DNA from: Patescibacteria group bacterium
GTDB lineage: Bacteria > Patescibacteriota > Minisyncoccia > UBA6257 > JAKLIH01
Direction: 5' to 3'
Assembly (NCBI GenBank): GCA_022709715.1
Contig: JAKLIH010000003.1
Coordinates: 11,501 to 58,357, forward strand
Length of the DNA stretch: 46,857 nucleotides
Position 1 is the first letter of the stretch. Every line of letters begins with the position of its first letter. This document shows positions 12,280 through 36,811 of the stretch, piece by piece. The notes below the pieces were generated by a model that saw only the letters and a program-made list of their open reading frames with translations, searched no databases and had not been told where the DNA came from. The translations under genes were made by a program, and so were the position numbers.

Positions 12280-13530
12280 ATGGATCAAGACCTAATAAAT
12301 ATAATAAAAAGGCAAAAAATACAAAAAGAATCATTTTTAAAATCTAAATTTATATCACGAGATCAATTAAAGGAAAAAGAAGAGTTATTAAAGCTTGGTT
12401 TAATTAAAATTATTATTGGGCCTCGTAGAGCTGGCAAATCAGTATTTTTATTACTTTTATTACAAGGAATTGATTTTATGTATGCTAATTTTGATGATGA
12501 TGATTTAGTAAAAAATATTGATAATAAAAATGATTTTACTGATGCTTTAGAACAAGTATATGGTAAAGTTAATACTATTTTATTTGATGAAATACAAAAT
12601 TTACCTAATTGAGATTTGTATTTGAATAAATTACAACGAGAAGGTTATAATGTTTTTATAACTGGATCTAATTCTAATTTATTAAGTACTGAATTTGCTA
12701 GTTCTTTAACTGGTAGATATAGAACTTTAGAAATATTACCTTTTAGTTTTTTAGAATACATGAAAGCTATTAATGGAACTGGTAATTTTGATTATTTTTT
12801 AAAACATGGAAGTTTTCCAGAACTTATTATTAAAAATTTAGATTTAATGCCATATATAGATGATTTAATTTCAGCAATATTATACAAAGATGTAACTAGA
12901 AGGTTTTTAATTAAAGATCCTGAAAAAATTAATTTAATGATAATTTATTTAATTTCTAATTGTTGTAATATACTTAATTATGTAAATTTGGGTAAAGCTT
13001 GTGACATGTCAAGCTTTAGAACTATGAAAAGATATTTAGGCTATATTCAAAATTGTTATTTATTCTACTTTTTATCTGGATTTAGTTTTAAAACTTCTAA
13101 CTATTTAAAATCTTCTAAAAAAATATATGTTGTTGATAATGGAATTTTATCATATAAAAATTTATTTAATTCTTCTAATAATGGTTTATTTTTTGAAAAT
13201 TTAGTATTTACTGAATTAATAAAAAGAGGATATAATCCTAATTCTTATTTATTTTATTACAAAACTAAAAATAATTATGAAATTGATTTTGTTATAAAAG
13301 ATATTTATAAAGTTGGACAATTAATACAAGTTTGTTTTGATATTTCTAGTAAAAAAACTGAAGAAAGAGAAATAAAAGCTTTAATTCAAGCTAGTGATGA
13401 ATTAAAATGTGATAATTTATTAATTATTACTGTTGATACTGATAAAATTGAGAAAGTAGGAGATAAAACTATAAAATTCATTTCTTTTACTGAATGGGCA
13501 AAGTCTTTTGACAAAAATACTAAATTATAA
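12280..13530 (+). CDS. AAA ATPase with DUF4143 C-terminal domain
   Basis: The product has 416 residues. Walker A GPRRAGKS is at 47-54, Walker B ILFDEIQN has D103-E104, and the sensor segment FITGSNSNLLS fits the AAA_14 family. The C-terminal third (FENLVFTELIKRGY, then YYKTKNNYEIDFVIKD) is the DUF4143 nuclease-like fold, with the E...IDFVI core. Such proteins are common and abundant in candidate phyla and often occur in accessory regions; their function is poorly known. TGA at 12610 is Trp. The next gene begins three bases after the stop, so it opens a tight operon with the NERD, helicase and methylase genes. Confidence 0.9.
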
Positions 13531-13533
13531 AAT

Positions 13534-14304
13534 ATGAGAAAAGGTTTAGCTAGTGATGTATTTAGTTATTTTAGTGATAATAAAATATATCAATATGATA
13601 TAGAAAGAGCTCTTGTAAAATTTTGTAAAAAAGATATTTTATTTGTAAAACATTGTTATTGTGATTTAAGCGATAAAGAAATAGAAATTTTTGTTGATTG
13701 ATTTTTGTTTTATTATAAATTAAAAGATAATAAACAAAAACCTTTAAAATTTTATTATTTAACAAAATATTTATCTTTTAATGAGGAAGATAAAGAAAAT
13801 TATAAAAATTTGCTAAAAAGCGTTTATTCGCTTTGAAAAATTTGCAAAATAGATTTAGACAAAGGTATGGATCTTGAAAATATGTATAACAAAAAGCACA
13901 TTTATGTAAAAGAAAAAATAGGAACTCATGATATAGATATAGGTGATATTATTGTTAATAGAGTTAGTAAGATAGACGATCATTACGAATTGTTGGGTAA
14001 TACTAATTGATATTGATTAAAAACTGAATATGATCATCCTGTATTACGTGAATTATTAAAATATAAAAAAGCAAATCCAAAATTAGTTAGAGATTTAATG
14101 GAACAATTTTTTGAAACAATCGAAAAATTAAAAAATGGTGGCCGAGAAAAAATTAATAAGAAATTAATTAATGGCGATGAATGTATTTGTGAAATGTGTC
14201 ATAAACAAGGAAAAATAGGGGGGTTACAATTTGATTTAATAACTAATGAGCCGTTATTGTATTGCAAAAACTGTGCATCAAAATTTGTAAACTATAATAA
14301 TTAA
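13534..14304 (+). CDS. Hypothetical protein with C-terminal CxxC zinc-binding pair
   Basis: The frame appears only with UGA as Trp (TGA at 13699, 13837, 14008 and 14014). The 256-residue product is Lys/Tyr-rich and soluble. The last 40 residues contain CICEMC and, after a short beta stretch, YCKNC, a treble-clef or zinc-ribbon arrangement as in HNH or small nucleic-acid-binding modules, but no HNH residues are evident. It is separated by three and two bases from the ATPase before it and the NERD protein after it, so it is almost certainly co-expressed with both. No family is recognised. Confidence 0.8.
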
Positions 14305-14306
14305 AT

Positions 14307-15065
14307 ATGGCAAAAATATACGGTGGAAAAAGTAAATATTTAGTTAAAAAAGATTTGAAATTCAATATTTTTGGTAATCTATTTATTCCAATATTGATTA
14401 TTTCATTTTGTTATATTATGATACGAGCAATGTTGGGTTTTATAACTTTGAATGGTGCTTCTTATACAACAGTAGTTTTGCTTTTTATTTTGATCTTAGT
14501 TATTAAAATATTTGAGAATACAACAGGTAAAGATATGTTGAGAATACGGAAGTTTTGTAATATCAAATCAGATAAATATCATCGAGGTTGAAAAGGAGAA
14601 GAAGTAATTTTTAAAATTTTAGAAACTTTATCTGGCGATTATACTGTTTTTTGTGATGTTAATTTATATAATCATGGCAATATTGATTTTATAGTATTAG
14701 GCCCTTGTGGGTTATTAGCAATTGAAGTTAAAAGTTATAAAGGAAGAATTACTTTTGAAAATAATGAATTATTAAGAAATGGATATACAATTAAAGAAAA
14801 AAATATTTTAAAACAAACTATTAATGAAGCTTTGGATTTAAGGCAATATTTAAAAGAAAAAATACAAAAGGAATTCTTTGTAAATCCAGTTTTAGTCTTT
14901 TCTGATAAATATGCTAGTGTCAAATTTGGTTTAAATCCTATAAATAGTGTATACGTAGTCCAAAAGGAATATTTGATAAAACTAATAGAATCATTTCCCG
15001 TTGCTGTTAGTAGAGAGGACGCTGGGAAGATCGAAGAAGAAATGGCTTTATTGTATGATAGGTAG
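14307..15065 (+). CDS. Membrane protein with NERD (nuclease-related) domain
   Basis: The product has 252 residues. Two membrane helices lie at about 24-48 and 55-72. A NERD domain follows: G-W(UGA)-KGEEVIFKIL, then IDFIVLGPCGLLAIEVKSYKG with D127, E140 and K142, which form the D...E-x-K pattern of the restriction-endonuclease-like fold. NERD proteins are presumed nucleases or DNA-binding proteins and recur in defence-related regions. The gene sits between the CxxC protein and the PLD-helicase. A membrane-attached nuclease role is an inference from the motif. Confidence 0.85.
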
Positions 15066-15125
15066 AAATAGTTGTTTTAAATTAATAAATATGATAAATT
15101 ACCGTTAATAATTTAAAATGAAAAT

Positions 15126-18100
15126 ATGGTTAATAAAGTTTCTAAGATTATAGATAATAATAGAAAAAGTCTTCTGGATTCTTTAGTAGAAACTAGTAAA
15201 AGTTTTGATGAAATTTCGATAGCGACAGGTTATTGAGATTTAGAAGCTACTTCATTGCTTTTACCTTATTTAAAAGATTATAAGAAAATACGTTTAGTTA
15301 TAGGACAAGAACCTTCTATACCTAGATATGATCTAAACAATATTGAACCAGATTTTCCTGATAAAGATATTTTTGATGATTTGCAGAGGTTAAAAACAGA
15401 TAGTAATTTAAATGGAACTGTAAAAGAATTAAAAAAATTAGTGGATCAAAATATCTTAGAAGTTAAAGTATTTAAAAAAACATTTCTACATGCTAAGTGT
15501 TATATTTTTGGAAATTTTAATTCTAAAGAAGCAGTGGGATTTATTGGTTCTTCTAATTTTACTAAGAATGGATTACAGATTAATAGAGAGTTAAATACGG
15601 GAGAAGATGATTCTAGGATAGTTCAATTTAAACCAAATAATAATCAAGAACATGGTCACTTATCTTGGTTTGAAGAAATTTGGAACGATGACGGATGTAT
15701 TGAATGAACAGGACGATTTATTGAATTAATAGATACTTCAATACATGGAGATAAATTATTTACTCCTTATGAGATGTATATTCATACTCTCTATCAAATT
15801 TACAAAGATGATTTATTTTTAGATGTTAATTTGGATAAAGAATCAGAATCTATATTACATGCGTTTCAAAATAGAAATGCTAGGTTATTGATACAAAAAT
15901 TAAAAAAAACAGGTGTAGCAATGCTAGCAGATTCTGTTGGCTTGGGTAAAACTATAACTGCTGGAGCCGTTATTAATCATTATTTAAATACAAATAAAAA
16001 GATTAGAATAGAAGTAATAGTGCCAGGATCATTGATTGATCAGTGACCAACTGAATTAGGAAAGCATTTCGGGATTAATAATTTGATTATTACAAGTTTT
16101 CATAATAAAGATGCAATAGAAAAAAGAAAAGAATTGGATAAACATGTTGGAGAGGTAGATCTTTTTGTAATTGATGAGGCTCATAATTTGCGAAAAGAAA
16201 GTGGTTCTCGTTATGAACAAATGATGCTTTGAATACAAGATAATCCCAATGCACATGTTTTGTTATTAACAGCTACCCCTATTAATAATAGCCTAGTTGA
16301 TTTTGCTGCTCAAATTAATATAGCAAGTGGAGGTACTGAAAATTTATTTAAAGTGCAAATCCCTGAAATGGAATCTATGCAACAAGCAGAAGCGAAAGAT
16401 TACTATGATGCAATTGTAGATTTAAATTCTTCAATTAAGAAAGATTTGAAAGCGGGTAAAGAAATAAATAAGAAAAAAATTCGTACAATTATGCGTCCAA
16501 TTTTAGAACATTTTATGGTAAGATCCACCAGAAAGGGTGTAGAAAAAGAATTCCAAGGTATAACAGATAAAGATAATAATCTTATTAAGTTTCCAGAAGC
16601 TAAAACCGATTTATTAAAATATCAATTTATTGATGAGGATAATGTTTTAAAAAATATTGCAAATAATACAACACTACCAATACTGGAAATGTTAAATAAA
16701 GATCCAGAGAAAATTATAGATTTTAGACAATTAAATAGACATCCTTTAGATATGTTAAATGAATTTCCTAAAAAAGATCAAAATTATTTTAATTCTACTT
16801 TAAGTAATATATTTTTATTATCTTTATATTTAGGATTACCAATATATAGATCTACGTTGTATAAACATGAATTCTTTAATAAAGATGTCGAAGATATTGA
16901 TAAAATTTTAAAATCTAAAAAGAATAAAGATCTCATATTCACCGTGAAACAACAAATGGTAGTGCATAATATGATGAGGACTATATTTTTAAAAAGAACA
17001 GAGTCATCTATTTATTCGTTGAAAAAATCTTTAGAAAATTACGAAGAAAGAATTAAAAATTTTCTAGAAATATTAAATAATGAACATCTAATTATACGTG
17101 TTTCCAATATTGAGACATATTTAGATTTAATAGAAAGAGAGGAAAACTTAACCAATAAAGAGAAAAATGAATTAGAAGAATTAAAAGAAGTTGCCGATGA
17201 AAATATTTATAATTTAGAAGCATTAAAAAATGATATTGAAAAAGATAAGAAAATTATTTCTATTATGAAACAAGCTTTGGATAAATTGATAGAAAAAGAT
17301 GATAAACTAGAGTGTTTTAAAAAATTTTTAGACGATCAATATAGTAATAATAAAAAAGTTTTAATTTTTTCATATTTTTCTGATACAATAAATTATTTAT
17401 CTAAAAAATTACCAACAATTTGTACATATTTGAATAATAAAAATAGTGCATTTGTTAGTTCAGAAAACAAAAACAAAGCTCAAGAATATGCAAAAAGGTT
17501 TTCACCAATATCAAAAGAATATTACGATCAAATAGATGAAGATAATACAGAAATTCAATTTTTATTTTCGACCGATGTTATATCTGAAGGTCAAAATTTA
17601 CAAGATGCTTCCGTAATTCTTAATTATGATTTACATTGAAATCCTGTTCGCATGATTCAAAGAAATGGCCGCATTAATAGATTGGGTTCAAAGCATAAAG
17701 AAGTTTTTGTTTACAATATGACTCCAGCTCAGGAAATCGAAGAATATTTAAAATTAAAGAAAAGATTAGAATTTAAAATCGAAGTTATTAAGGCTTCAAT
17801 TGGTAGCGATCAATCAATATTAGGTGAAGAAATTCAAAATATTGAATTTATTGGGGGCGATAGAGATGATGCCGATTTAGCTAAAAAAATATATTCTGAT
17901 GATCAAACAAAAGTAATAGAAACAATTGAAGAAGAAACTGATATATTTTCTGATGATAATTTTTTATCTGATTTAAAAAATTTTGAAGACGACAAAAATT
18001 TAACACGAGAATATAAAGATAGAATATATAAAAATATTTCAAAAGGTAAATGGGGTATCATTGCAAATACCGAAAATAGTAAAGAATTGCCTCAAAATAA

Positions 18101-18653
18101 TGATTTGTTAGTTTTTTCGCAAATCAATTTACAACAAGGAAAAGAAATACAAACAATGCCTTTATTTTTAGCTCTTGATAAAAACGGGGAAAGTATTTGT
18201 TTCGTAGAACAATTACATGCTTTGAAAATTTTATCATGTAATAAAGAAGATATTAGTTCTAACAATAGTATTAATAATTTTAATCGTCAAGCTATTGAAA
18301 ATACTGTAAATTCAAGGATTTTACAAATAGCTGATAGAATGATAACTGATACTGAAAAAGTCGTTTATAAATATCAAGAAAAATTTCTTACTTGATTAGA
18401 TGAAAAAGGATATGTTCAAGATCAAAAAAATATTAGAAAAGCAATTGAAAAAGGCAAGAATCGTTTCTTGCGAAATAATTTAAAAAGATTAATTATGAAA
18501 GCTAATAGAGATATTAATAGTAATAAAATTCCAGAAAATAAATTATTAAATAATATTTTTGAAATATCTCAAAAAATATTAAATAGTCTTACAGATGAAA
18601 ATATAATAATAAAAGATGATTATATAATTGAAAATTATTATGGTAAACTATAA
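15126..18653 (+). CDS. PLD-nuclease / SNF2-family helicase fusion
   Basis: The product has 1175 residues in one frame through several TGA (Trp) codons. The N-terminal phospholipase-D-like domain has H122-A-K-C-Y and GSSNFTKNGL, one HKD-type half site as in dimeric PLD nucleases. The superfamily 2 motor follows: DSVGLGKT (269-276), DEAH (350-353), TATP (382), SEGQNLQDAS and QRNGRINRLGS (845). A long charged coiled-coil insertion lies between the two motor halves. Such enzymes act in NTP-dependent restriction. DISARM DrmD and other SNF2-type restriction helicases are the nearest comparison, here with the nuclease fused. The 3' end overlaps the methylase gene by 14 bases, so the pair is translationally coupled. 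Confidence 0.93.
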
Positions 18654-21600
18654 AAAAATAAAATTAGATTTTGAATCTAGTAAAAAAATAGAAGATTTAA
18701 ATACACTTGTTATTGATCTTTTTAATAATCCAAATTTTGATAAAGGTCAAGAATGTATTTTATATTTAGCAAAATGTTTAGGTATTGAACCAGTGAATTC
18801 TAATAATAAGTTTGCGTTTATTTTGAATAGTAAATTTAAAAAAAATGCAGGATGGTTTAATAATCATGTAATAATAAAAGATAGCAAAGCAGGAGAGTAT
18901 ATTAAACATGATAATAGATATCCAATAGATATTAATGTTTTTTGATTAAATAAATTAACAAATTCTCGCATAAAAGGTGCGGTTCATTTTTCAGCTAACT
19001 ATGAAGACAGTAAATTAACAAGAGAAGAACTGGATAAGCATATAGGAATAGATACTTTTTTACACCCTGATTTAAAAGGAATTACGATTGCATTATCGAA
19101 TAATAGTTATGTTAGAGTGCTTGAATTAAGGGGATATCTGAATGCCACTCAAAAACAAATTTTAAGTAATTGAATTATTCTGGGTAATAATTTGAAAGAT
19201 AATAGTAAAAATATCAATAATCGCCAATATATTCATGAATCTTTATGAGAATCGTTTGAGCTTAAAGCTGTTAATAATGATTTTTATAATATGATATCAA
19301 GTGCGTTTATTGAATTATCTAGTTATCTAAATAAAAATAAATTTTTTGATGAAATAAAAGCAAAAAATTTTTCTAATAGACTTATCGGTAGGATTTTATT
19401 TATTTGATTTTTAAGAAAAAAGGATTTTATTTTTACTGATAAAATAGACTATTTTGATATAGAAAATTTGAATGATAAAGATTATTATTACCAGAAATTA
19501 ACAAAATTATTTTTTAATGTATTAAATACACCATGAGATAATAGGGATAAATTGGAAGATGATTTAAAAACACCTTATTTAAACGGAGGACTATTTAAAA
19601 AAAATATTGAAGATATAGAAAATTTAGATTTTCCAAATAAATTTTTTTATAGATTATATCAAGGACTAAATGAATATAATTTTACTGTTGATGAATCAAG
19701 CGTCGATTTTCAACAGGTAGCCATTGATCCAGAAATGTTAGGAAAAGTATTTGAAAATTTATTAGCCAGTATGACAGATGAAAATGGAAAACAAGCTCGT
19801 AAAGCTAAGGGTGCTTTTTATACTCCTCGTGAAATAGTTAGTTATATGTGTAGAGAAAGTATAAGAGAATATCTATTTACTAAGATATCTGATGAAGAAA
19901 ATCAAAAATTAATAAATGAATTAATAGATACCCCAGATCATATTTGAGAAATTGATAAATCCAATAGTATTAGAGATATTTCAAAAAGATTTGAAGATCT
20001 GTATTCTACTATCTCCATTGCTTTAAAAGAAATTAAAATTTTAGATCCAGCATGTGGTTCTGGTGCCTACCCAATAACTATGCTATATGAGTTATTGAGA
20101 TTACATTTAAGGTTAGACCGAAGATTGGATGAATATAAAACTAAATTTGAAATTTTTAAAAATAATATTTATGGTGTGGACATAGATCCTATTGCTATTG
20201 AAATTTCTAAATTAAGATCATTTTTATCTTTAATTGTTGATCAAGAATATAATGATAAAAAAATAAATGGAGGCATAGATCCGTTACCCAATTTAGAGTT
20301 TAAATTTGTATGTGCTAATACATTAATTTCCCCATCTTTAATAAATTCTCTTTTCGATGATAGTTTGATATTTTTTAATAAATTGAATAAGATTAAAGAA
20401 CAATATTTTAAAGCAAATTTGTCACAACGTTTGAACCTTGAGCAAGAATGGAAAAATGCAACTATTATTCATCCAACAGATGGTGAAAAAATAATTACTC
20501 TTAAAAGTTATAAACCTTTTGATTCTAATAATTCCGCTCAATTCTATTATCCAATATTAATGCATGATGTAGAAGATAATTTTGATATTGTAATTGGTAA
20601 TCCACCATATATACAATTACAAAAAAATAATGGGCAATTAGCTAATTTATATCAAAATAGTGGTTTTAAAACTTTTGAACGAAGTGGTGATATCTATTGT
20701 TTATTTTATGAAAAGGGTATTAATTTATTGAAAAAAGAAGGAATTCTTGCCTATATCACTAGTAATAAATGAATGCGATCGAAATATGGGAAAAATTTAA
20801 GAGAATATTTTTGCAAATTTGATCTATTGCAATTAATTGATTTAGGAGCTAATATATTTGAATATGCTACAGTAGATACTAATATATTAATACTTAAAAA
20901 TACTGAAAATAAAAATAAAAAATTAAATGCTATAAAATTAGAAAGAAAAAATAAAGAAATAAATTTAAATGATATTTTTCAAAATAATAATAAATATATT
21001 AAATTAAGTAATGGAGCTTGATTTATTGGAACAAAAATTGAGCATGATTTAAAAGAAAAGATAGAAAAAAATGGAAAGCCCCTTAAAGATTGAGATGTAA
21101 AAATATATAGGGGTATTTTGACTGGACTAAATGAAGCTTTTATTATTAACGAGGCCAAAAGAAAAGAATTAATAGAAAAAGATCCAAAATCTGAAGAAAT
21201 TATAAAACCGATATTAAGGGGAAAAGATATAAAAAGATATGGATATGATTGAAAGGGTTTATATCTCTTACAAACTCAGTTTGATTTAAATATTCCCAAA
21301 TTATATCCAGCAATATTTGAACATTTATCTAAATATAAAAATGAATTAATAATACGAGATGACCAAGGAAAAAATTGGTGAAATTTAAGAGCTTGTTCTT
21401 ATTATGATGAGTTTGAAAAAGAAAAAATTATTAATAAAAATATAGGAAAGAACTTAGCTTTTACAGTTGATACTGATAATTATTTAATAGAAGCATCGTG
21501 TTTTTCAATTTCTATTACAAGGCCTAAATATATTTGTGGAGTAATAAATTCAAAAATTATAAAATATTATATTCTAAATTTTTCAGATAGAACAGGGACA

Positions 21601-21834
21601 GGAGATATTGCTATTAAAGGAATGTTTATAGAGAAATTTCCAATACTTGTTGCTAATTCAAATACAAAGAACGTGATAGAAAAGATAGAAAAACTAGTTA
21701 GTCAAATTTTAGTTTTCAAAAAACAAAATAAAAACACTGATACCAAAGATCTTGAAAACCAAATTGATCAACTGGTTTATAAATTATATGATTTAACTGA
21801 TGAAGAAATTAAAATTATAGAAAATTTTAAATAG
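18640..21834 (+). CDS. Eco57I/PglX-like adenine-N6 DNA methyltransferase with target-recognition domain
   Basis: The product has 1064 residues. ATG at 18640 overlaps the helicase end. Methylase motifs are GAFYTP (391), SAM-binding DPACGSGAY (469) and catalytic NPPY (654), as in amino-methylases that modify adenine. The C-terminal third (PILRGKDIKRYG, then a TaqI-type specificity region and terminal coiled coil) should read the DNA target. No clear PD-(D/E)XK nuclease is seen at the N-terminus, unlike true type IIG enzymes, so cutting may be left to the PLD-helicase partner. TGA encodes Trp at ten or more sites. Confidence 0.93.
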
Positions 21835-21860
21835 AAATGTTTTTAAGCTTAATTTATGTA

Positions 21861-21900
21861 TAAAAAGAAACTTACAACTGGATAAAAGAGGTAAGTTTCT
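21861..21900 (-). terminator. Terminator of the minus-strand DUF1508 gene
   Basis: AGAAACTTAC (21866-21875) pairs with GTAAGTTTCT (21891-21900). On the minus strand the hairpin is followed by TTTTTA. Confidence 0.8.
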
Positions 21901-21924
21901 AAGAGTATCATGTTGTTACTAAAA

Positions 21925-22110
21925 CTATATAGTACTAACAACATCCATCGATCAAGCAATTTTTTTTATTCAATTAGCTGAGTCAATAGCCGATTGTTTT
22001 AAGAGATAAGCTTCACTAGAAGCTACTTTCTCTCCATTAGTTGCCTGAAGATATCATCTGTAATAGCCGGCGATATCTTTATAAATAACAAATCTTGACC
22101 TCATCATCAT
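21925..22110 (-). CDS. DUF1508 (YegP-like) small protein
   Basis: The 61-residue product reads through TGA as Trp on the minus strand. RFVIYKDIAGYYRWYLQATNGE and SSEAYLLKQSAIDS (shown in parts) match one DUF1508 repeat, whose members carry f.v.kd..G.yrW.L.A.NGe.i..Se.Y. The family is of unknown biochemical role and is linked to stress or envelope contexts in other bacteria. Three consecutive ATG codons (22110-22102) leave the exact start open. A minus promoter at 22184-22212 and a terminator at 21861 frame it. It is the only clear protein gene on this strand, and it is transcribed divergently from the S24 repressor. Confidence 0.85.
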
Positions 22111-22183
22111 GATTATTTTATGTTTTGTTAAATTTATTAATGTCGATCTAAAATAGAGCCGACCCAAGCTATTTATAGATAGT

Positions 22184-22212
22184 AATTTAGCATAGTTTTT
22201 AGCTATTGTCAA
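22184..22212 (-). promoter_or_regulatory. Promoter of the DUF1508 gene
   Basis: On the minus strand TTGACA (22212-22207), 17 bases, TAAATT (22189-22184). It leaves a leader of about 70 bases before the ATG cluster. Confidence 0.6.
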
Positions 22213-22246
22213 CAAAATCAAATTGTCAAATTTATTTCTTTTATTG

Positions 22247-22275
22247 TTGACAAATCCAATATATTTTGTTAGACT
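22247..22275 (+). promoter_or_regulatory. Promoter of the S24 repressor gene
   Basis: TTGACA, 17 bases, TAGACT. It lies back to back with the DUF1508 promoter, so one repressor could control both directions. Confidence 0.6.
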
Positions 22276-22302
22276 GATCTAAATAGAAATAAATATTTAA
22301 AT

Positions 22303-22980
22303 ATGCATATAATACAAGAAAAAATCCTTAATATGATTAAAGAAAACCCTATCAAAAAAGGTGATTTTAGAAGAATCGGCTCTTTAATTGGAGAATCACA
22401 CCCTTTTAAAATATCTTATCATATCAACAGGCTTATTAAAAATAATTTTATTTATACCAATAAAGATGGACTTTTATGTGCTACAATTTTAGGCCAAGAT
22501 AATAACAGGTTGTTTTCTATTCCGGTATTAGGCGAGGCTTCATGCGGCATCCCTAATATATTTGCGGAAATCAATTTTGCTGGATATATTCAGGTTTCGA
22601 AAAAATTATTAGAAGATATAGATGATATTAAAAATATAGTGGCGGTAAAAGCTTTTGGCAATTCTATGAATAAAGCAATCATTGGCGGTAAAAATGTTGA
22701 AGAGGGAGATTATGTTTTAGTCGATCTTAGTAAAACAAAGGGTTCACAAAAATATGTTTTAGCTGTTCATAATGGTTGTGCTGTAATTAAAAGATTGTAT
22801 AAAAACGAAAAGGAGCATATTTATTCTTTAGTATCTGAGTCAACGGAAAAACATCCACCAATTTTTATAAATCCAGACGAGGCGGATGATACTTTTGTTA
22901 ATGGATATGTTTTAGATGTAATTAAGAAACCGAAAGATAGTGAATGTGAAAATATAATTGAACCGATTGAAGAAGATTAA
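22303..22980 (+). CDS. LexA-like S24 family repressor
   Basis: The product has 225 residues. The N-terminal 60 residues form a winged-helix-like domain (KISYHINRLIKNNFIYTN). The S24 peptidase domain follows, with GNSM (catalytic Ser about 121) and Lys about 163 in AVIKRLY, the Ser-Lys dyad of self-cleaving LexA/CI repressors. The usual Ala-Gly cleavage site is Cys-Gly here (about 81-82, in GEASCGIPN). It is likely an SOS or accessory-region regulator that loses DNA binding when cleaved. It sits between the divergent DUF1508 gene and the TIR/HEPN genes. No TGA codons are used. Confidence 0.85.
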   Translation: MHIIQEKILNMIKENPIKKGDFRRIGSLIGESHPFKISYHINRLIKNNFIYTNKDGLLCATILGQDNNRLFSIPVLGEASCGIPNIFAEINFAGYIQVSKKLLEDIDDIKNIVAVKAFGNSMNKAIIGGKNVEEGDYVLVDLSKTKGSQKYVLAVHNGCAVIKRLYKNEKEHIYSLVSESTEKHPPIFINPDEADDTFVNGYVLDVIKKPKDSECENIIEPIEED

Positions 22981-23017
22981 AAGTCGAAAAAGTTAAGAAA
23001 AAATTAAAATAATTATT

Positions 23018-23695
23018 ATGTTACTTAAAGAAAGAAGAACCTTTCAAGTGGTTAATGATATAAGAGAGGCAATACTTAGTTCAACTTTAGATATTGGGGT
23101 TAGAGTAAATCATGATAATCAGATATTCCTAAATATTAAAAATAAATATTCAGAAGAAGAGGTTAATTATGCTTTTAGATGACTTGAGGGAGTCGGTTAT
23201 TTTGGCTATTTTAACGGTCAAAATACTTTTGAAGGGTACACCTTGACAACCAAAGGTTTTAATGAATGATTATTCCCTTATGGAAAAGTAAAACAAAAAA
23301 ATATTTTTATTTCTTATTCTACAAAAAATGATATTTTAGCTGGTAAGGTGCAAAAGAAATTAGAGGAATTTGGTTTTACTGTATTTTTGGCTCATAACGA
23401 TATAGAAATTGGTAATAAATGATTGGATAAAATAATAAGTGAATTATCGAGCTCAAATATTTTTATTGGTTTAGTAACAAAAGATTTTATAAATAGCTAT
23501 TATTGCCAACAAGAATTAGGGTTTGCATTAGCATCAAATAAAAAAATATTTAATTTTTATATTAATTTAAGTAAAAAAATTAATAAAGAGCTAGGATTTT
23601 GTTCTATATATCAAATAGAGAAAATTACTTGTGATACCGAAGATAAAATAGTAGAAGAAATATTAAAATATTGTCAAAAGCAATTAATTATCTAA
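23018..23695 (+). CDS. TIR-domain protein with N-terminal winged-helix-like region
   Basis: The product has 225 residues, with TGA-Trp codons at 23180, 23267 and 23420. Residues 1-90 look like a small helical or winged-helix domain (EEEVNYAFRWLEGVGYF). From about 94 a TIR domain begins: KNIFISYSTKNDILAGKVQ, FGFTVFLAHNDIEIGNKW, FIGLVTKDFINSYYCQQELGFAL. E166 in CQQE is at the position of the catalytic Glu of NAD-cleaving TIR enzymes. Bacterial TIR proteins of this kind act in anti-phage abortive infection by NAD depletion or signal synthesis. The next coding sequence is HEPN/Abi-like, which fits a defence role, but no sensor partner is obvious. Confidence 0.85.
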
Positions 23696-23697
23696 AA

Positions 23698-23811
23698 ATG
23701 AGAAAATTAAATTTTGATGAAAAATGAGAAAGATATAATAAATAATTAGAAAGTCGAATTAAAGAAAATTTAAAAAAGCTTGGGTTTAAGATAAAGTCAT
23801 GTCTTCATTAA
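23698..23811 (+). pseudogene. Possible 37-codon ORF interrupted by in-frame TAA
   Basis: ATG at 23698 gives MRKLNFDEKWERYNK (W by TGA), then TAA at 23743. In the same frame LESRIKENLKKLGFKIKS continues to the next TAA at 23809. Both halves look like coding sequence, so this may be a decayed small gene or the remnant of a larger one. It could also be a 15-residue leader. Evidence is weak. Confidence 0.25.
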
Positions 23812-24617
23812 ATCAAATATACAACAAATTAGGCTTATTACCTAAAATAGAAGAAGAAAAGGAGAAATTTTGCAATAGAGTTATTCAATTAATGAAAAAC
23901 CTGGATTCTCAAGATACTAATAAAAATTTTCTTAAACGTTTTTTAGTAATTTCTGGTATAAAAAATCATAGCTCATTAGAATATTGTTTTGATGAGGGCA
24001 CTTTTGAAAATTATATTTTATATTTAAATTATATTTTATATATGATATCTCAAAATGAAGAACTACCTTCTAATAAACAATTTAATCCAGGAATTATTAA
24101 TCTATGTAAAAAAGGCATTGAGACAATCTTTAAATTAACATTATTGAATTTAGGATATCTATATAAAGGCAATTATATAATTAAATCTGGTGCGAAGGAA
24201 TTAGATGAAAAATTAATTATTGATAATCTAGACTGGCTAATTGATTTCCCTAATGTTAGAAAAAATTTTAAAAAAGCAGTAGAGTTTAATGAAAGTAAAA
24301 ACTATGAAGATTGTTTAACAAACGCATATAGCGCGCTTGAAAATATAGTAAAAATAGTATTAGATAATAAAAAAATATTACACAACAATAAACAAATAAA
24401 TGCATTCCTCAAAAAAATTAATTTAGGACAATGAAACAATATAATAAAAAATTTTTGCGATATTGCAAATAATTTTTCTTCAAGGCATGGAAACGAAAAA
24501 GAAAAAACTAATACAAAAATAAAATTAACGCCAGAGTTAGCAGAATTTTATTTATATATGACAGGTAGTTTTATTAGATTAATTACACAAACTATTAAAG
24601 AAAACGAAAAAAATTAG
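23799..24617 (+). CDS. HEPN / abortive-infection C-terminal-like protein
   Basis: The product has 272 residues, helical throughout, with TGA-Trp at 24432. The N-terminal part (about 1-110) is of unknown fold. The C-terminal part (KAVEFNESKNYEDCLTNAYSALENIVKIVLD, quoted in pieces; then NNFSSRHGNEKEK and an ELAEFYLYMTGSFIRLI helix) resembles the Abi_C/HEPN domain, whose R...H-G motif is the RNase site; R and H are adjacent here. Such domains cleave RNA in abortive infection. It follows the TIR gene with only a short remnant between. The family call is by pattern only. Confidence 0.7.
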
Positions 24618-24649
24618 TTACCCATGTAGGCGAAAATGCTCAAATACTT

Positions 24650-24811
24650 ATGTTTCAGAATAAAAACAATATTTTATGTATACAAATGTTAATAACTCTA
24701 TGCGGAGAAGAAACTGGCAAATTAACTGATAAGTGTGTTAATTCTATTTATGGGAATTTGCTGTTCCAAAAATTAAAAAATAAAAATATTAAGAAAATTA
24801 TTAAAAAATAA
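24650..24811 (+). CDS. Possible small basic protein (53 aa)
   Basis: An ATG-TAA frame without Shine-Dalgarno has Cys and Lys-rich content and ends four bases before dut. The frame is open further upstream past 24617, so it may be a gene fragment. No family is recognised. The C-terminal half is almost only Lys, Asn, Ile and Leu, which AT-rich non-coding DNA can mimic. Confidence 0.25.
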   Translation: MFQNKNNILCIQMLITLCGEETGKLTDKCVNSIYGNLLFQKLKNKNIKKIIKK

Positions 24812-24814
24812 CTT

Positions 24815-25249
24815 ATGCCTAAAAATCTAACATACAAAAAAATTGATAAAAACTTACCAGATCCCAAATATCAAACAAAAGGTTCTGTTGGTTTTGATTT
24901 ATATTCAAGAATTGATATTACAATAAAACCACATCAAATTGAATTAGTTCCCACTAATTTAATTGTAAAAATACCAAAAGATTATTTTCTAATGATAACT
25001 TCCAGATCATCAACTCCAATTAAAAAACATCTTTTTGTAGCCAATGGTATTGGTGTCATTGATCAAGATTATCATGGCGATCAAGATGAAATAAAAGTAG
25101 AATTTTATAATTTTAGTAATAAATCAGTTAAAATCGAAAAAGGGGAAAGAATAGCCCAAGCATTATTAGTTAAAATTAGTACTCCAAAATTAAAATTACA
25201 AAATTTTAATAAAAAAATTTCAAGAGGAGGATTTGGAAGTACTAATTAA
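24815..25249 (+). CDS. dut: dUTP diphosphatase
   Basis: The 144-residue product is the normal trimeric-enzyme length. It hydrolyses dUTP to dUMP and pyrophosphate, which keeps uracil out of DNA and supplies dUMP for dTMP synthesis. The five family motifs are in order: GSVGFDLYS, SRSST, NGIGVIDQDYHGDQ, KGERIAQ and RGGFGSTN. The Asp and Tyr of motif 3 are present. There are no Trp codons. The neighbours are accessory genes, so it could be a host copy in the island or one brought by a mobile element. Confidence 0.95.
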   Translation: MPKNLTYKKIDKNLPDPKYQTKGSVGFDLYSRIDITIKPHQIELVPTNLIVKIPKDYFLMITSRSSTPIKKHLFVANGIGVIDQDYHGDQDEIKVEFYNFSNKSVKIEKGERIAQALLVKISTPKLKLQNFNKKISRGGFGSTN

Positions 25250-25268
25250 AAATTTTAAAATTTAATCT

Positions 25269-25547
25269 ATGTCAATTATAAAGAAAAAATGTTGACCAGA
25301 ATGATTTGATAAATTTTGTTCTGGTGAAAGAACATTTGAATTGCGTTTAGCTGATTTTGATTTAAAAGACAATGATATTTTATCATTTGAGGAATATAAT
25401 CCAAAAACAAAGAAATATACAGGTCGTGTTGCAAATTTTAAATGTTCAAAAGTAGAACATTCTGCACAAAATCCATTACAATTCTATAATATTAAAGATG
25501 TTGAAAAATATGGATTTTGAATAATAAAATTAGATAAACAAAATTAA
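25269..25547 (+). CDS. ASCH/DUF3850-like small protein
   Basis: The frame exists only with UGA as Trp (25293, 25302, 25518). The 92-residue product has K-CWPEWFDKFCSGERTFELRLADFDLKDNDIL (in parts) and EEYNPKTKKYTGRV. These fit the ASCH/DUF3850 pattern of K..p.yF..i.sG.KtfElR.nDr...GD.l.l.Eyd....YTGR. ASCH domains bind RNA or modified nucleic acids and are often carried by phages and accessory regions. It follows dut after 19 bases and precedes the metK leader. Confidence 0.75.
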
Positions 25548-25610
25548 ATATTTAATTAACACCAAATACTCTGTTCAGTCTAAAATATTATAACAAACAC
25601 ATACAAAATA

Positions 25611-25639
25611 TTGACATTTTTCAAAATCTATACTAAAAT
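25611..25639 (+). promoter_or_regulatory. Promoter of the metK leader
   Basis: TTGACA, 17 bases, TAAAAT, ending 11 bases before the first base of the riboswitch. Confidence 0.7.
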
Positions 25640-25650
25640 ATATTTGAAAA

Positions 25651-25752
25651 CTTATTAAGAGTGTAGGGAGGGAACTAGCCCGTTGATCTACCGACAACCT
25701 GCTTAATCAAAAAAGTAAGGTGCCAAATCTAGTCCCATACGGGAAAGATAAG
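25651..25752 (+). promoter_or_regulatory. SAM-I (S-box) riboswitch
   Basis: The sequence has the S-box signature in order: a closing P1 stem CTTATTAAGA / GATAAG, then GGGAGGGAACTAGCCCG, CCGACAACC, the AAGGTGCCAAATC junction and the final P4 hairpin TCCCATACGGGA. S-adenosylmethionine binding would stabilise P1 and favour the terminator that follows. It lies directly upstream of metK, the SAM synthetase, which fits feedback control by the product. Confidence 0.93.
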
Positions 25753-25773
25753 GTCGACAAATATTTCAAATAT

Positions 25774-25804
25774 TAAAACCACTTTCCCAAAAAGTGGTTT
25801 TTAA
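25774..25804 (+). terminator. Terminator of the SAM riboswitch expression platform
   Basis: AAACCACTTT (25776-25785) pairs with AAAGTGGTTT (25791-25800), followed by a short T run. It sits between the aptamer and metK. Confidence 0.85.
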
Positions 25805-25832
25805 AATTAATAAAATTTTTAAACTTTAAAAT

Positions 25833-26879
25833 ATGAAAACAGCCGAATTTGTTTCTCTAATGCATCCAGATAAAATCTGTGATCGCATTTCCGCCAGTAT
25901 ATTAGATGAATGTTTAAAACAAGATATTAATTCCAGAGTAGCAGTAGAAACTTTAGGTGGACATAAAAAGATTATTGTTATGGGTGAAATTACCACTAAT
26001 GCTAATATAGATCTAAAAAGTATAATTTCAAAAGAAATAAATAATAAATCTTTTGAAATCATCACTAATATTAATCATCAATCAAACGAAATAAAACAAG
26101 GTGTTGATTTGGGTGGAGCTGGTGATCAAGGTATTATGATTGGTTATGCTTGCAAAGATACAAAAAATTTCATGCCTCTTGAATATGAACTATCAAGAGA
26201 TTTATGTAAATGAATCTATAATGTATATCCTTATGACGGAAAAGTTCAAATTACTGTTGATGAGCAAAAAGTTAAAACTATTTTAGTTAGTTGAAGTAAA
26301 GTTTCTAAAAATGATTTAGAAAAAAGAATCAATGATTGATTTGTACAAAAATCTCAATCAAATGAAAAAATTAAAATAACAGAAGATTACAATCTTTTGA
26401 TTAATCCTATTGGTGATTGAAATCTTAATGGTTTTGATGCTGATACTGGTTTAACTGGTAGGAAAATTGTCATTGATTCTTATGGGCCAAGAGTTTCTGT
26501 TGGTGGCGGTGCTTTTAGTGGTAAAGACCCAACTAAAGTTGATTTATCAGGTGCTTTAATGGCTAGAAAATTGGCTGTGGATCTATTAAAGTCCATAGAT
26601 AGTTTTTATTCAGTTACTATTAGGGTTGCTTATGGTATTGGTATTGAAAAACCAATTATGCTTGAAGCCGATGTAGAATTTATTAAATATCCAACAGAAA
26701 ATCAAAAAACCAATTTTAATATTTTAAGAGGTCAAATGAGACACGCTGAAGATCCAAAAGCAATAATTGAAATGTTTTATCCCAATAATATTATTAAAAT
26801 ATTAGATCTTAAAAAGCCACAATACAAAGAACTTTCAAAATGAGGACATTTTGGTAATAATAACCTATGAGACAAATAG
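25833..26879 (+). CDS. metK: S-adenosylmethionine synthetase
   Basis: The 348-residue product makes SAM from methionine and ATP. Motifs are HPDKICDRIS, GAGDQGIMIGYA, DADTGLTGRKIVIDSYG (DAGLTGRK motif), GGGAFSGKDPTKVD and the C-terminal GHFGNNNLWDK. TGA encodes Trp at six or more sites, including both sides of the GHFG motif and the family's PWEK position. Oddities: Gly before HPDK is Met, the ISD of most enzymes is ISA, the DRS after TKVD is DLS, and the protein is shorter than the usual 380-400. The key Lys and Asp residues are kept. It is regulated by the S-box upstream. Confidence 0.95.
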
Positions 26880-26908
26880 TTGACTTTTTATACATTTTAA
26901 TGTAGAAT
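26880..26908 (+). promoter_or_regulatory. Promoter of the AbiE operon
   Basis: TTGACT, 17 bases, TAGAAT, 31 bases upstream of the antitoxin ATG. Confidence 0.6.
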
Positions 26909-26927
26909 TAGTATATAAAATATACTA
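26909..26927. promoter_or_regulatory. Palindromic operator at the AbiE promoter
   Basis: TAGTATAT-AAA-ATATACTA is a perfect 8-bp inverted repeat that begins right after the -10 box. AbiEi-type antitoxins repress their own promoters by binding inverted repeats, so this is the likely autoregulatory site. Confidence 0.6.
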
Positions 26928-26939
26928 AAACTGAATTAA

Positions 26940-27581
26940 ATGGGAAAAGAAATAAAAAACATAATAAATACAATAGTTTGTTTTACTAAAAAGAATTTAG
27001 AAACATATTTTAAGGGTAAAACCAATACATTTAATGCTCAAATAAAATATGCTCTTAAAAATGGCAACATTTTAAAGTTAAAAAATGGATTATATATATC
27101 TAAGGAATTTTATGATAAAGAATCAAATAAAACAGGACTATCTGAATACATTGCTTATCAACTTAAAAATCCATCATATTTAAGTTTAGAATATGTAATG
27201 CAAAAATATAATTTATTAACTGAAGGAATATATATTTTTACTTCAATTACAAGAAAAACTAAAAATATATATAAAAATTTATTAGGTACTTTTAAATATT
27301 CTAATATTAAAGATGAATTGTATTTTGGTTTTGAAAAAAGACAATTTGGAAAAAATATTTATTATGAAGCCAATAAAAGCAAAGCTGTATTTGATTATTT
27401 ATATCTTAAAAGAAACATAGGGTCAAAACTAAAGGAAGAAATTTTAGAAGGATTAAGAATTAATTGAATTAATTTTTCAATCAAAGATTTTGCATTATTT
27501 GATCAATATTGCCAAATATCAAAATCAAAAAAAATGATCCGCATTGCTAATATTTTAAAAAACAATATATATAAATTATAA
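26940..27581 (+). CDS. AbiEi-type antitoxin / transcriptional regulator
   Basis: The product has 213 residues. The N-terminal winged-helix part (NAQIKYALKNGNILKLKNGLYI) matches the AbiEi_4-type domain of type IV antitoxins. The middle (YIAYQLKNPSYLSLEYVMQKYNLL, in parts; then FTSITRK) is the typical SYvSleyaL...gLi.e....t.vt pattern. It should repress its own operon and oppose the nucleotidyltransferase toxin encoded three bases downstream. TGA-Trp is at 27465. Basic and Lys-rich, no membrane segment. Confidence 0.88.
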
Positions 27582-27584
27582 AAT

Positions 27585-28418
27585 ATGCTTTTAAAAGAAT
27601 TAAACGATATAATTATAGAACAAACAAAAAAAGGAGTTCAGAAACCAATTATTTTAAATCTTCTTAAAGAACATCTTCAATATTATTTTTTGAATTTTAT
27701 CTATAATTCAAATTATGGTAAAAATTTAATTTTTATTGGAGGTAGTGCTTTACGTATTTGTTATGGTCTAAATAGATTATCAGAGGATATTGATATGGAT
27801 ATAGAACTAAATACTACAATTAATAAACAACAACTCGCCGAAGATATTGTAAAATATTTTAAACAAACATATTTATTTGATAATTTAGAATATACTATAT
27901 CAGGTAAAGACGAGAAAATTTATTTTAAATTTCCAATATTAAAAGAATTAAATATATCGGATAATAGCGAATCCGATAAATTATATGTAAAACTAGAGAT
28001 TTCTGATATTATATCTAAAAGCTATAAAGTTGCATTAACTCCGATATCAAAATTAGGTTTTAACTTTATTGTTAAAAACTATGATTTAGAAACTCTAATG
28101 GCATCTAAAATCAATGCTATTTTTACGCGAAAATATATAAAAGGAAATGATGAAAATTATAATTTCAAAGGCAGAGATTATTTTGATTTACTTTGATATT
28201 TACAAAAAGGAATTAAACCCAATATGGATTTTATTAAAGATACTTTAAAAATTGATAATTTAGAAGAATTATATAAAAAACTTTATGATTTAATTCAGAA
28301 TTTAAATATCAAATACTTAGAAGAAGATTTATTACCTTTATTTGAAGATGGTGTTTTTATACAAAATTATTGTGAAAATTATAAACAAATGATTAAACAA
28401 TTTTTATTATGAAAATAA
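27585..28418 (+). CDS. AbiEii-type nucleotidyltransferase toxin
   Basis: The product has 277 residues. The DNA polymerase-beta-like motif GGSALR (52-57) and LSEDIDMDI with D68 and D70 give the GS...SxDxD active site, followed by KLEIS and a conserved Lys in MASKINAIFTRK. AbiEii-class enzymes transfer nucleotides, in some members to tRNA, and cause growth arrest in phage defence. A TGA at 28410, read as Trp, extends the end by two codons to TAA 28416, so the gene overlaps the radical SAM start by 10 bases. It is coupled to the antitoxin upstream. Confidence 0.92.
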
Positions 28419-30383: not shown

Positions 30384-30560
30384 ATGACTCCAGAAGAATT
30401 TTATATACAGTTCGGGCTAATGGGTTATATCCGAAACGGTGGAGGTCGTAAATGGGGAGATCCACCCGAGCTAGATTTTTTTTCAATCAAAAGCAAACTA
30501 AGATCAAGCACAAATTCTTCGTCAAACGAAACCCCGCATGTTTACGACGATCCGAAATGA
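30384..30560 (+). CDS. Small protein, MT(P/A)xEF family member 1, ending at TGA
   Basis: A perfect Shine-Dalgarno (AAAGGAGGA) precedes ATG. Read to TGA 30558 the product has 58 residues, with its only internal Trp as TGG. If TGA is Trp, as elsewhere, the frame runs through the terminator hairpin to TAA at 30657 with a hydrophobic tail of no merit. A strong hairpin starting nine bases after TGA suggests TGA is the real end. The N-terminus MTPEEFYIQFGLMGY resembles that of the next gene (30706). Function unknown. Confidence 0.65.
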   Translation: MTPEEFYIQFGLMGYIRNGGGRKWGDPPELDFFSIKSKLRSSTNSSSNETPHVYDDPK

Positions 30561-32697: not shown

Positions 32698-33378
32698 ATG
32701 CTTATAAAATTATCTATACAATACAATAAAAAAATAGATTCCGAAGAAAAGTTAAAAAGACTAATCCATCTAGCCTATAAATTAAATCAGAAATTTTTTG
32801 AGACTGAATTACCTTTATTAAAAATAAAGCTTTTTTATTCTAGAAAAAATTTCAATTATTACTTTAAAAAAATATATCACCAAGATTCTTTAGCTTGAAT
32901 GGTTGCTTGGATACCAAGTAAATTTTATATTTATATTTTTAGCCCTTCAGCTTTTAAATCTGAAACTAGTCATAAAGCCAGCAATTTTATTAAAGTTTTA
33001 ACTCATGAAATAACCCACATTTTTATAAAAGAAATATACAATATTAACCAACCAAGATGATTAATTGAAGGGTTGGCAGATTATATAGCCAAGAAAGATT
33101 TTAAAAAAGTAAAAATTAAGAAAATTATTAATTTTAAACTTTTACATACTTTTAATGATTTTAAAAACTATAACTCGTATAATCAATCAGGATTATTTGC
33201 TAAATATTTATTAGAAGAATTTGGAAAAAATTTATTATTACAGCTTATAGAAAATTTAAGAAATAATAAAAATGATTTTGAAAATTTTAAAAAAATCTTT
33301 AAAAAAACATATAAATTGAATTTTAATACAGTAATAAACAATTGGTCAGATAATATAAACGCCAACCTAGATAAATAA
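32698..33378 (+). CDS. Zincin metallopeptidase (HExxH...GLADY)
   Basis: The product has 226 residues. The zinc motif HEITH is at 103-107 and the third ligand lies in IEGLADYIA (Glu124), the gluzincin arrangement of the peptidase_MA type. TGA-Trp occurs at 32896 and 33058, the second just before LIEGLADY, where many relatives have W.EGlA.y. No signal peptide is seen, so it may act inside the cell or be exported by an unrecognised route. The 150-bp spacer before it (32548-32697) contains only a possible 16-codon fragment near 32638-32688. Confidence 0.88.
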
Positions 33379-33384
33379 AAGAAA

Positions 33385-33440
33385 ACCGAACAATCTCTAT
33401 CTATATCTACATGGCGATAGCCATTAGAGATTGTTCGGTA
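33385..33440 (-). terminator. Terminator of minus-strand RNA copy 1
   Basis: ACCGAACAATCTCTA and TAGAGATTGTTCGGT form a perfect 15-bp inverted repeat. On the minus strand it is followed by TTTTCTTTTATTT. Confidence 0.75.
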
Positions 33441-33696
33441 TAATACATCTCTTTAATAACGAAGAGACGACCACCATTTTTGACCGTCATAGCCTTGGTG
33501 AGCATTATCTCGCCAACTAGCTGATAGCTGAAGATTCTATTTGTCCTTCCATAGAAGGTTAATAATATTCTGTTCATTATTTCTCAGGTGAATTTTACGG
33601 CATCTCAGTTTAGAATAAGTAATTCTATTAGTAATGCCCAATATAAGGTACAAACTTATCCAGTAAATGCATTGGTTTACTTTACCGATTATTATT
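33385..33696 (-). ncRNA. Candidate minus-strand RNA with 16S-rRNA-like hairpin (copy 1)
   Basis: A minus-strand promoter (33697-33724) and a terminator hairpin at the other end (33387-33440) frame about 300 bases without a convincing gene. Inside, CTAGTTGGCGAGATAATG then CTCACCAAGGCTATGACGG (minus strand, around 33483-33522) is nearly the conserved 16S rRNA stretch around E. coli 240-280. Copy 2 at 33777-33993 shares this hairpin and flanks. The rest does not read as an intact 16S gene. Confidence 0.5.
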
Positions 33697-33724
33697 ATTG
33701 TATAGTATTTTTATAATTTGTCAA
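33697..33724 (-). promoter_or_regulatory. Promoter of minus-strand RNA copy 1
   Basis: On the minus strand TTGACA (33724-33719), 16 bases, TACAAT (33702-33697). Confidence 0.55.
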
Positions 33725-33776
33725 CTGGTTTTTTAAAAAATCGAACGGCCTTGTTAATAGATAGGATTGTTTAAAT

Positions 33777-33806
33777 TAAAAAAAGCGCCCCTTAAGAACA
33801 AGGGGC
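33777..33806 (-). terminator. Terminator of minus-strand RNA copy 2
   Basis: CGCCCCTT / AAGGGGCG stem, with a run of T after it on the minus strand. Confidence 0.85.
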
Positions 33807-33993
33807 GGCCACCATACATCCATTCGCCTTGGTGAGCCATTGCCTCGCCAACCAGCAGTCGGAAGGAGAGTTTTCCAATAATATGGGTTAAATGTTATCC
33901 AATTATTGGTTTCTCCAGGTGTATCAACGCGCGTTAAATGGGTACAAGCCAATTTCAAATATCTAACTAATAATACTATATATTTGAAGTGGC
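33777..33993 (-). ncRNA. Candidate minus-strand RNA with 16S-rRNA-like hairpin (copy 2)
   Basis: The unit is framed by a minus promoter at 34000-34027 and a terminator at 33777-33806, giving a transcript of about 215 bases. The core CTGGTTGGCGAGGCAATG then GCTCACCAAGGCGA (around 33823-33855) matches the 16S rRNA H11 region closely. Upstream GGAGAAACC, GGATAACATTT and AACCCATA also echo 16S spacing. A W-rich 60-residue minus frame covers it but has no ribosome-binding site and would read into the terminator. Confidence 0.5.
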
Positions 33994-33999
33994 ATTATT

Positions 34000-34027
34000 A
34001 TATTAGCATATTTGGAAAAGATGTCAA
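34000..34027 (-). promoter_or_regulatory. Promoter of minus-strand RNA copy 2
   Basis: On the minus strand TTGACA (34027-34022), 16 bases, TAATAT (34005-34000). The neighbouring + promoter at 34052 makes this a divergent promoter region. Confidence 0.6.
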
Positions 34028-34112: not shown

Positions 34113-34520
34113 ATGAAAATTTTGGATGTGCCTGTGAAATTGGAAATTGTTATTATCCCGAATCCAAACAGAGAATATAAAATTGAGGGTAGTATTGAAT
34201 TATCCGCCAAAGGCAAAAAAGTGTCCTTCGATTATTATTTTAACAATAGAGATCGTGAAATCATGGTGGAGGGTCACGAAATAGATATCTCTATTGTTGA
34301 TAAAATAATAGGACAAAAACACAACTTGAAATACACATATCCAGATAAAAATTTATGGAAAATTGATTTTCGAATTCGTGAACTATGGAAATTAGTTCAA
34401 AAAACGATCGCCTTATTAGCGATCAATCCGCTTCTTCAAAATAAAGATGCTGGAATCGTGTATAACGCCATTGAAATGGTTGACAAAGGTTCGTACCAAA
34501 CTTTTTTTGATCCATTTTGA
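34113..34520 (+). CDS. Small hypothetical protein (135 aa), ending at TGA before a terminator
   Basis: A strong Shine-Dalgarno (AGGAGGG) precedes ATG. Both internal Trp codons are TGG. The frame meets TGA at 34518. Reading it as Trp would add 17 residues encoded by the terminator hairpin itself, up to TAA 34572. Ending at TGA places the stop 17 bases before a perfect GC-rich terminator. The product is beta-rich at the N-terminus and helical at the end, with no signal and no recognised family. Confidence 0.7.
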   Translation: MKILDVPVKLEIVIIPNPNREYKIEGSIELSAKGKKVSFDYYFNNRDREIMVEGHEIDISIVDKIIGQKHNLKYTYPDKNLWKIDFRIRELWKLVQKTIALLAINPLLQNKDAGIVYNAIEMVDKGSYQTFFDPF

Positions 34521-36616: not shown

Positions 36617-36811
36617 TTGAACATTATTGTTGATGCTCGAGAAGAATTGCTCATGCGACTTGGTTTGGGTGGATACAAAGCTGGAGATGACAAACTTTAT
36701 CTTTATGGAACACCCGATCAAAAACAAGAAGTTGTTGATAGATTACAATCTTATTTCAACAACAAGAAAGCGCACAAATGAGCAACGATTTACAAAGACG
36801 TTTTGCCTTAA
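36617..36811 (+). CDS. Small protein, member 3 of the short GD..L family
   Basis: The frame begins at TTG 36617 after an AAGGAAG ribosome-binding site; there is no ATG. It meets TGA at 36779 after 54 codons. Read as Trp it continues nine residues to TAA 36809, located in the loop of the terminator; read as stop it ends before the hairpin. The segment AGDDKLYLYGTPDQKQEVVD aligns with the 30706 product. The end is therefore ambiguous (36781 or 36811). Function unknown. Confidence 0.6.

Follow-up and report, generated by a model that had tools for sequence, protein, structure and literature searches.

Tandem RNA units resembling helix 11 of 16S rRNA in a Patescibacteria genome, and helix-11 mimics in unrelated phages

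A stretch of 46,857 nucleotides from a Patescibacteria group bacterium (the window; GenBank assembly GCA_022709715.1, contig JAKLIH010000003.1, positions 11,501 to 58,357) contains two tandem minus-strand units whose RNAs are, on well-supported grounds, mimics of helix 11 of 16S rRNA, and the same helix recurs in non-16S RNAs of unrelated phages. We give about even credence to a fuller reading, in which the units are structured non-coding RNAs that display helix 11, either as part of a widespread class or by convergence, and would act in trans as protein binders, with uS17 the likeliest partner. The genome that carries the window measures 0.9 Mb in 107 contigs. Their neighbours, both on the plus strand, are a peptidase gene (32698-33378) and a gene of unknown function (34113-34520), with the units in the interval between the two; no minus-strand gene is found 3' of either RNA unit, and the convergent plus-strand gene ends at 33378.

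Each unit carries its own expression signals. An earlier sequence-only reading had placed two minus-strand RNA units here, with a promoter and a terminator apiece, and our check of the sequence bore this out. The copy 1 promoter (33697-33724, minus strand) consists of TTGACA at 33724-33719, a 16-nt spacer and TACAAT at 33702-33697, and scored 11/12 in a consensus scan. The RNA predicted from this start is about 305 nt long (33384-33690, minus strand). Its first 3' hairpin, P4 (CGUCUCUU/AAGAGAUG, 33446-33469, located by sequence comparison), has no U-run after it; termination is instead assigned, from fold and sequence, to a second, long hairpin (ACCGAACAAUCUCU...AGAGAUUGUUCGGU, 33439-33385) followed by a U-rich tail (UUUCUUUU; TTTTCTTTT) that reaches 33374. 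In the copy 2 promoter (34000-34027, minus strand; 10/12), TTGACA at 34027-34022 is separated by a 16-nt spacer from a TG-extended TAATAT at 34005-34000, and the promoter and terminator positions predict an RNA of about 215 nt (33778-33993, minus strand). Here P4 is itself an intrinsic terminator, CGCCCCUU-GUUCUU-AAGGGGCG followed by CUUUUUUU (33786-33807), with a T7 tail.

The predicted RNAs fold more stably than shuffled sequences, with z values of -4.85 for copy 1 and -2.78 for copy 2. Copy 2 opens with a 5' hairpin (GCCACUUCAAAUAU...AUAUUUGAAAUUGGC, 33948-33993) seen in both the MFE and the centroid fold. Next comes the 5' strand of P1, CACC at 33918-33921, which pairs with GGUG at 33813-33810 in the centroid and MEA folds and closes two elements: the hairpin P2 (GGAG...CUCC, 33865-33916), which occupies the position of 16S h7-h10, and the helix-11 mimic. 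The free MFE fold of copy 2 lacks P1, at -49.6 vs -49.3 kcal/mol with P1, so that the closed form is suboptimal by 0.3 kcal/mol. In copy 1, the corresponding CACC (33587-33590) and GGUG (33475-33472) are paired in the MFE fold. A layout of P1-P2-h11-P4 is thus possible for both copies, with an outer CACC/GGUG stem around P2 and helix 11 that is 4 bp long and shorter than the outer stems of the phage RNAs.

The 16S-like hairpin that had been noticed in both units resembles 16S far beyond chance. By BLAST against the genome's own 16S gene (on contig C14; SSU model score 1312.9), copy 1 aligns over 45 nt at 87% (E=8.2e-8) and copy 2 over 33 nt at 88%. The SSU covariance model, which the earlier reading had named as a check, returned matches above noise when a 91-base stretch was scanned: Rfam RF00177 positions 238-282 for copy 1 (19.6 bits, E=2.1e-4) and positions 244-276 for copy 2 (15.2 bits, E=0.005). 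These scores are both below the gathering score of 50 bits and the matches cover 45 and 33 of the 1533 model positions; a wider 821-base Rfam scan listed neither copy as an SSU match. The mimics occupy 33484-33527 in copy 1 and 33824-33856 in copy 2. In both, alignment (A2) reveals the 8-bp apical stem UUGGCGAG/CUCACCAA with one C-A mismatch and a 6-7-nt loop (33516-33509 / 33502-33495 in copy 1; 33851-33844 / 33836-33829 in copy 2). Kink-turn strands of the AUCAGCUAG / GGCGACGA type are kept in part. Copy 1 retains the 5' strand exactly and has two bases changed on the 3' strand, where a U replaces G, and its helix 11 lacks one loop base. In copy 2, the 3' strand retains GCGA, but UAUCAG of the 5' strand is replaced by GACUGC. 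Judged by these sequences, the window copies are imperfect helix-11 mimics.

Likeness to 16S ends with this helix. The BLAST and covariance-model matches stop at helix 11, the rest of 16S is absent from both units, and their other parts gave no alignment to the genome's own 16S or to four reference 16S sequences, in agreement with the earlier remark that the remainder is not 16S. Two further segments of copy 2 that had been taken for 16S, GGAGAAACC and GGATAACATTT, are indeed present but align with neither the own nor the four reference 16S sequences. When Rfam was applied to the whole window at gathering thresholds, only a SAM riboswitch was called and no non-rRNA family fell over the units; at E<=10 over the units there was no believable match. 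The SAM riboswitch (59 bits, 25649-25754) lies upstream of metK at 25833.

Outside this genome, the helix is found in phages. When the region was compared with phage records by BLAST, Shewanella and Yersinia phages proved to have helix-11 copies that are not part of 16S. A helix-11 DNA pattern then matched 78 viral contigs in IMG/VR, 0 of them 16S, and the reversed pattern, used as a control, gave 0 matches; an E. coli-type variant of the pattern added nine contigs, eight of which are mimics. Two contigs were excluded, L161 as a true piece of 16S and L164 as a likely chance match. With named phages included, the carriers span over ten unrelated families, among them lambdoid and P2-like prophages, Jedunaviruses, Schitoviruses, T4-like phages and Streptomyces phages. 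A single insertion in a 23S gene adds to these. Named carriers are Shewanella phage Y11, Yersinia phage 30.14, Stenotrophomonas phages Pokken, Paxi and Piffle, Serratia phage Muldoon, Cronobacter phage VP8, the Jedunaviruses Klebsiella SBP and SCNJ1-Y and Escherichia ZCEC13, Escherichia phages Ecp_YSF and ECOO78, Streptomyces phages Omar and Stella, and E. coli lambdoid prophages. One suggestion of the earlier reading, that of small RNAs mimicking or binding a ribosomal partner, is supported and considerably widened by these observations: what is mimicked is precisely helix 11 of 16S, and non-16S RNAs of unrelated phages have this helix too.

Across the families the flanks are wholly different, whereas helix 11 is near-invariant and its stems covary. 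Genomic sites also differ: before early genes near gamL-bet-exo, among tail and baseplate genes, inside tRNA clusters, and at the gene-poor end of actinophages. Most phage families possess a long outer stem around helix 11 and a second hairpin. With the SSU model, the elements of Streptomyces phages Omar and Stella reach 68 and 85 bits, above the gathering score although over positions 106-311 only, with h7-h10 collapsed and h12 included. Enterobacterial elements have UUGGUGAG/CUCACCAA, and enterobacterial 16S is of the UAGGUGGG/CUCACCUA type; because of this difference, the enterobacterial mimics are not fresh copies of host 16S. Several minor features accompany the phage elements. In phage contig L158 (minus strand, approx. 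6240-6270), a second 16S-like segment, GGGTTGTAAACCTC, is located upstream of the helix-11 mimic, and a type II hammerhead ribozyme (L066:1717-1781) lies about 1 kb from the mini-16S element of Omar. Annotated or predicted frames that cross the helix-11 element at L121:2540-2590 and L062:2234-2896 are probably wrong gene calls. In Yersinia phage 30.14 and Stenotrophomonas phages, genes have been annotated across the element.

Selection on the phage element was assessed with 26 dereplicated sequences, using 500 shuffles and slid alignments as controls. The covariation score was 0.263 vs 0.126 for shuffled alignments; none of the 500 shuffles reached it, and it exceeded all slid controls. Ten pairs have two-sided changes in these sequences. 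In the apical stem, 96.6% of cells are paired, and both UA/AU swaps and two-sided changes occur; the basal stem is highly variable yet covarying. Both kink-turn strands and the lower apical stem contain the most invariant positions. Among 64 enterobacterial elements, minority bases make up 0-0.5% per site in the core, compared with 45% in the upstream flank and 13% in the downstream flank, and one outer-stem pair is C-G in 30, U-G in 20 and U-A in 13 of them.

Homologues of the units in related genomes, another check named in the earlier reading, were not recovered among the relatives sampled: when 384 class genomes and 244 order genomes were searched for the whole 3' module (model R2), the only matches outside this genome were 16S. 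The helix-11 pattern, applied to 380 phylum genomes, occurs three times in this genome and once in each of 71 other carriers. In a same-genus genome (G001), the flanking gene at 34113 and a GH3 gene are kept and the RNAs are missing. Among sampled relatives the RNA units thus appear unique to this genome, which, together with the conserved flanks in the same-genus genome, argues for local acquisition. Several candidates from these searches were set aside. Second R2 matches in other Patescibacteria were diverged 16S in every case fetched, except G127:C8; a genome-wide pattern with the 3' TGGTGG block gave a single match, a chance one in a phage tail gene whose sequence is also in IMG/VR; and plasmid matches were true 16S genes in the four records checked. 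Genome G127, also of the Patescibacteria, has a helix-11 mimic of its own (SSU model 237-283, E=1.3e-7), set in a three-way junction on a long stem approx. 165 nt upstream of 23S position 2656. Strings resembling a group I core were seen by eye in this insertion adjoining 23S (L217:1-483), and Rfam made no group I intron call for it at E<=1.

A comparison of the two window copies bears on what is being conserved. Common to both are GTTGGCGAG, CTCACCAAGGC, ATGGTGG and the 3' hairpin, and P4 differs between them by two compensatory pairs and one G-C to G-U change. Indels of -1 in the loop and +4 in the linker alter the codons and leave the flanking RNA blocks identical; because of these two indels there is no common reading frame, and it is RNA, not protein, that both copies conserve. 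A short conserved protein (frame ...WRGNG...WW) is accordingly hardly credible, even though a 60-codon open frame spans copy 2, and the conserved frame that the earlier reading had set up as a counter-explanation does not exist between the copies. A T-box or trp attenuator, considered for the tandem UGG ahead of the terminator, was rejected, with no downstream gene, no Rfam match and an unconserved frame. Very improbable, too, is the second origin offered in the earlier reading, that the units are functionless, expressed relics of a degraded 16S copy that was tandemly duplicated. The likeness to the genome's own 16S is genuine, as relics would have it, but helix 11 alone survives in both units with flanks unrelated to 16S, both have near-consensus promoters as well as terminators, compensatory changes are seen in the 3' hairpin, and the 71 other phylum genomes with the motif have exactly one copy; moreover, the same helix is under selection in unrelated phages, whose mimics differ from the 16S of their own hosts. 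Relics, chance and protein coding are disfavoured, as are cis-acting leaders, which are weighed below. How the window pair stands to the phage RNAs is a separate matter. Because only helix 11 and the closing-stem layout are common to them, the pair would be either a divergent member of the class or a case of convergence, and common descent of the window units and phage RNAs is unproven from such a comparison.

The part of 16S that is copied suggests what the RNAs may bind. We take Kt-11 to be helix 11, bound by S17. In Thermus thermophilus 16S, Kt-11 is a complex kink-turn (PMC5061560). The proteins uS17 and bS20 are primary binders of the 5' domain (PMC10931766); S17 and S20 bind its helix junctions, the binding domain of uS17 includes h7 and h11, and the 5' domain with helix 11 is bound by S4, S17, S20 and S16 (PMC5591316). 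From this we infer a uS17 step and a biological role as follows. Each RNA, once transcribed, would present helix 11 with both kink-turn strands inside a larger fold closed by the outer stem, and a detached helix 11 whose kink-turn is held in a junction is how a uS17 decoy or docking handle might be expected to look. The RNA would then act in trans by binding a protein, uS17 above all, that recognises helix 11 of 16S while the 30S subunit is assembled. In phages, it could titrate or commandeer the bound protein, as a decoy or as a docking handle, to the benefit of the element; in this island, the RNA pair would be cargo that does the same in its host. Since the genomic positions of the elements change, action in trans is favoured. 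The broadest form of this proposal, held with a little less than even confidence, is a mobile-element RNA class whose copy of helix 11 would capture uS17, or else some other binder of the 5' domain. Phages of widely different groups would have acquired or evolved it repeatedly, and it would also serve as a peripheral domain of an intron-like 23S insertion and, beside a defence island, as tandem cargo in a bacterium that has a small genome and resembles the candidate phyla radiation.

The RNAs may also be mimics of the same class with a different partner, such as bS20 or a 30S assembly factor, either of which could be bound just as well, or a nuclease, or a sensor in host defence that recognises this region of 16S, a variant that we regard as a less likely but serious possibility. 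It would fit the binding of S4, S20 and S16 to the 5' domain that contains helix 11 (PMC5591316), the retention of positions 106-311 including h12 in the actinophage elements, which is more than a minimal kink-turn site, and the placement of some elements among phage tRNA genes; the location of the most invariant positions, in the two strands of the kink-turn and the lower part of the apical stem, is better suited to a kink-turn binder. A role as cis-acting leader, with the mimic in the 5' UTR of a mobile-element gene sensing free uS17 or another binder, seems unlikely. A start codon does follow the end of the element by tens of bases in E. coli lambdoid prophages, Yersinia phage 30.14 and Shewanella phage Y11, and elements so placed in some phages may act in cis. 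However, the window units have terminators and no downstream minus-strand gene, no gene is consistently found downstream of the Jedunavirus, tRNA-cluster and right-end actinophage elements, and the downstream proteins tested gave no match to a common family.

Helix-11 mimics acting in trans would have partial parallels in known systems. Autoregulatory leaders that mimic rRNA are known for S15, S8, L1 and other ribosomal proteins. Such mRNA leaders follow the same logic, the site of a ribosomal protein being copied onto another RNA (PMC10931766), but the window units stand as genes of their own, with neither a ribosomal-protein gene nor any same-strand regulated gene downstream, and none of those Rfam families matched. 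Clusters of phage tRNA genes also hold stable RNAs that are not tRNAs, e.g., T4 RNA C and D; with these, the Pokken, Paxi and Muldoon elements share a location among phage tRNA genes. OLE RNA is likewise structured, does not belong to the ribosome and engages a ribosomal protein, its complex containing bS21 (PMC12054373), although it is about 600 nt long, no 16S helix copy is reported for it there, and it had no Rfam match here. The closest relation is to 16S helix 11 with Kt-11 itself (RF00177, approx. 238-282), whose sequence, stem lengths and loop are largely kept in the units, and whose kink-turn strands are kept in part; the units differ from it in having promoters, terminators and an outer stem of their own, no other part of 16S, and scores below Rfam gathering. 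Rfam has no family for these mimics and our survey of the open literature (subscription papers were outside its scope) found no paper on phage 16S helix mimics, so the class appears to be new. The element is present, unannotated, in more than ten groups of phages. If the proposal is true, phages and other mobile elements copy a single rRNA helix, which would be the RNA equivalent of protein mimicry, and there would be a direct handle on how they engage host ribosome assembly.

The surroundings of the units have features of their own. A defence island extends over window positions 12280-28418 (approx. 12 to 28 kb) and includes genes for a protein matching the candidate-defence ATPase model PDC-S01, an HKD-Snf2 helicase, a type IIG restriction enzyme, a TIR protein and AbiEi/AbiEii; an S24 repressor-like gene is found at 22303 and a Bro-N gene at 29234. 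The 5' end of the host 16S looks like that of candidate phyla radiation (CPR) bacteria, and the 10.5 kb surrounding the host 16S gene (L055) contain no 23S, which indicates unlinked rRNA genes. In-frame TGA is best read as Trp in 32698-33378 and in most genes of the window (e.g., PRWLIEGLADY), and the search for class-I release factors gave a single candidate, from the RF2 model, that scores under the cut-off and itself contains three TGA. These observations suggest a UGA=Trp code in a CPR-like bacterium. Small genes (window 30384-30560, 34113-34520 and 36617-36781, and L052 439-861) each have their own promoter, a strong RBS and a terminator, and they stop at TGA just before the terminator, although TGA is a sense codon elsewhere. 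In a same-genus homologue, readthrough of the TGA of such a gene would cross the terminator into the next gene. The small TGA-ending genes are possibly recent imports from standard-code donors.
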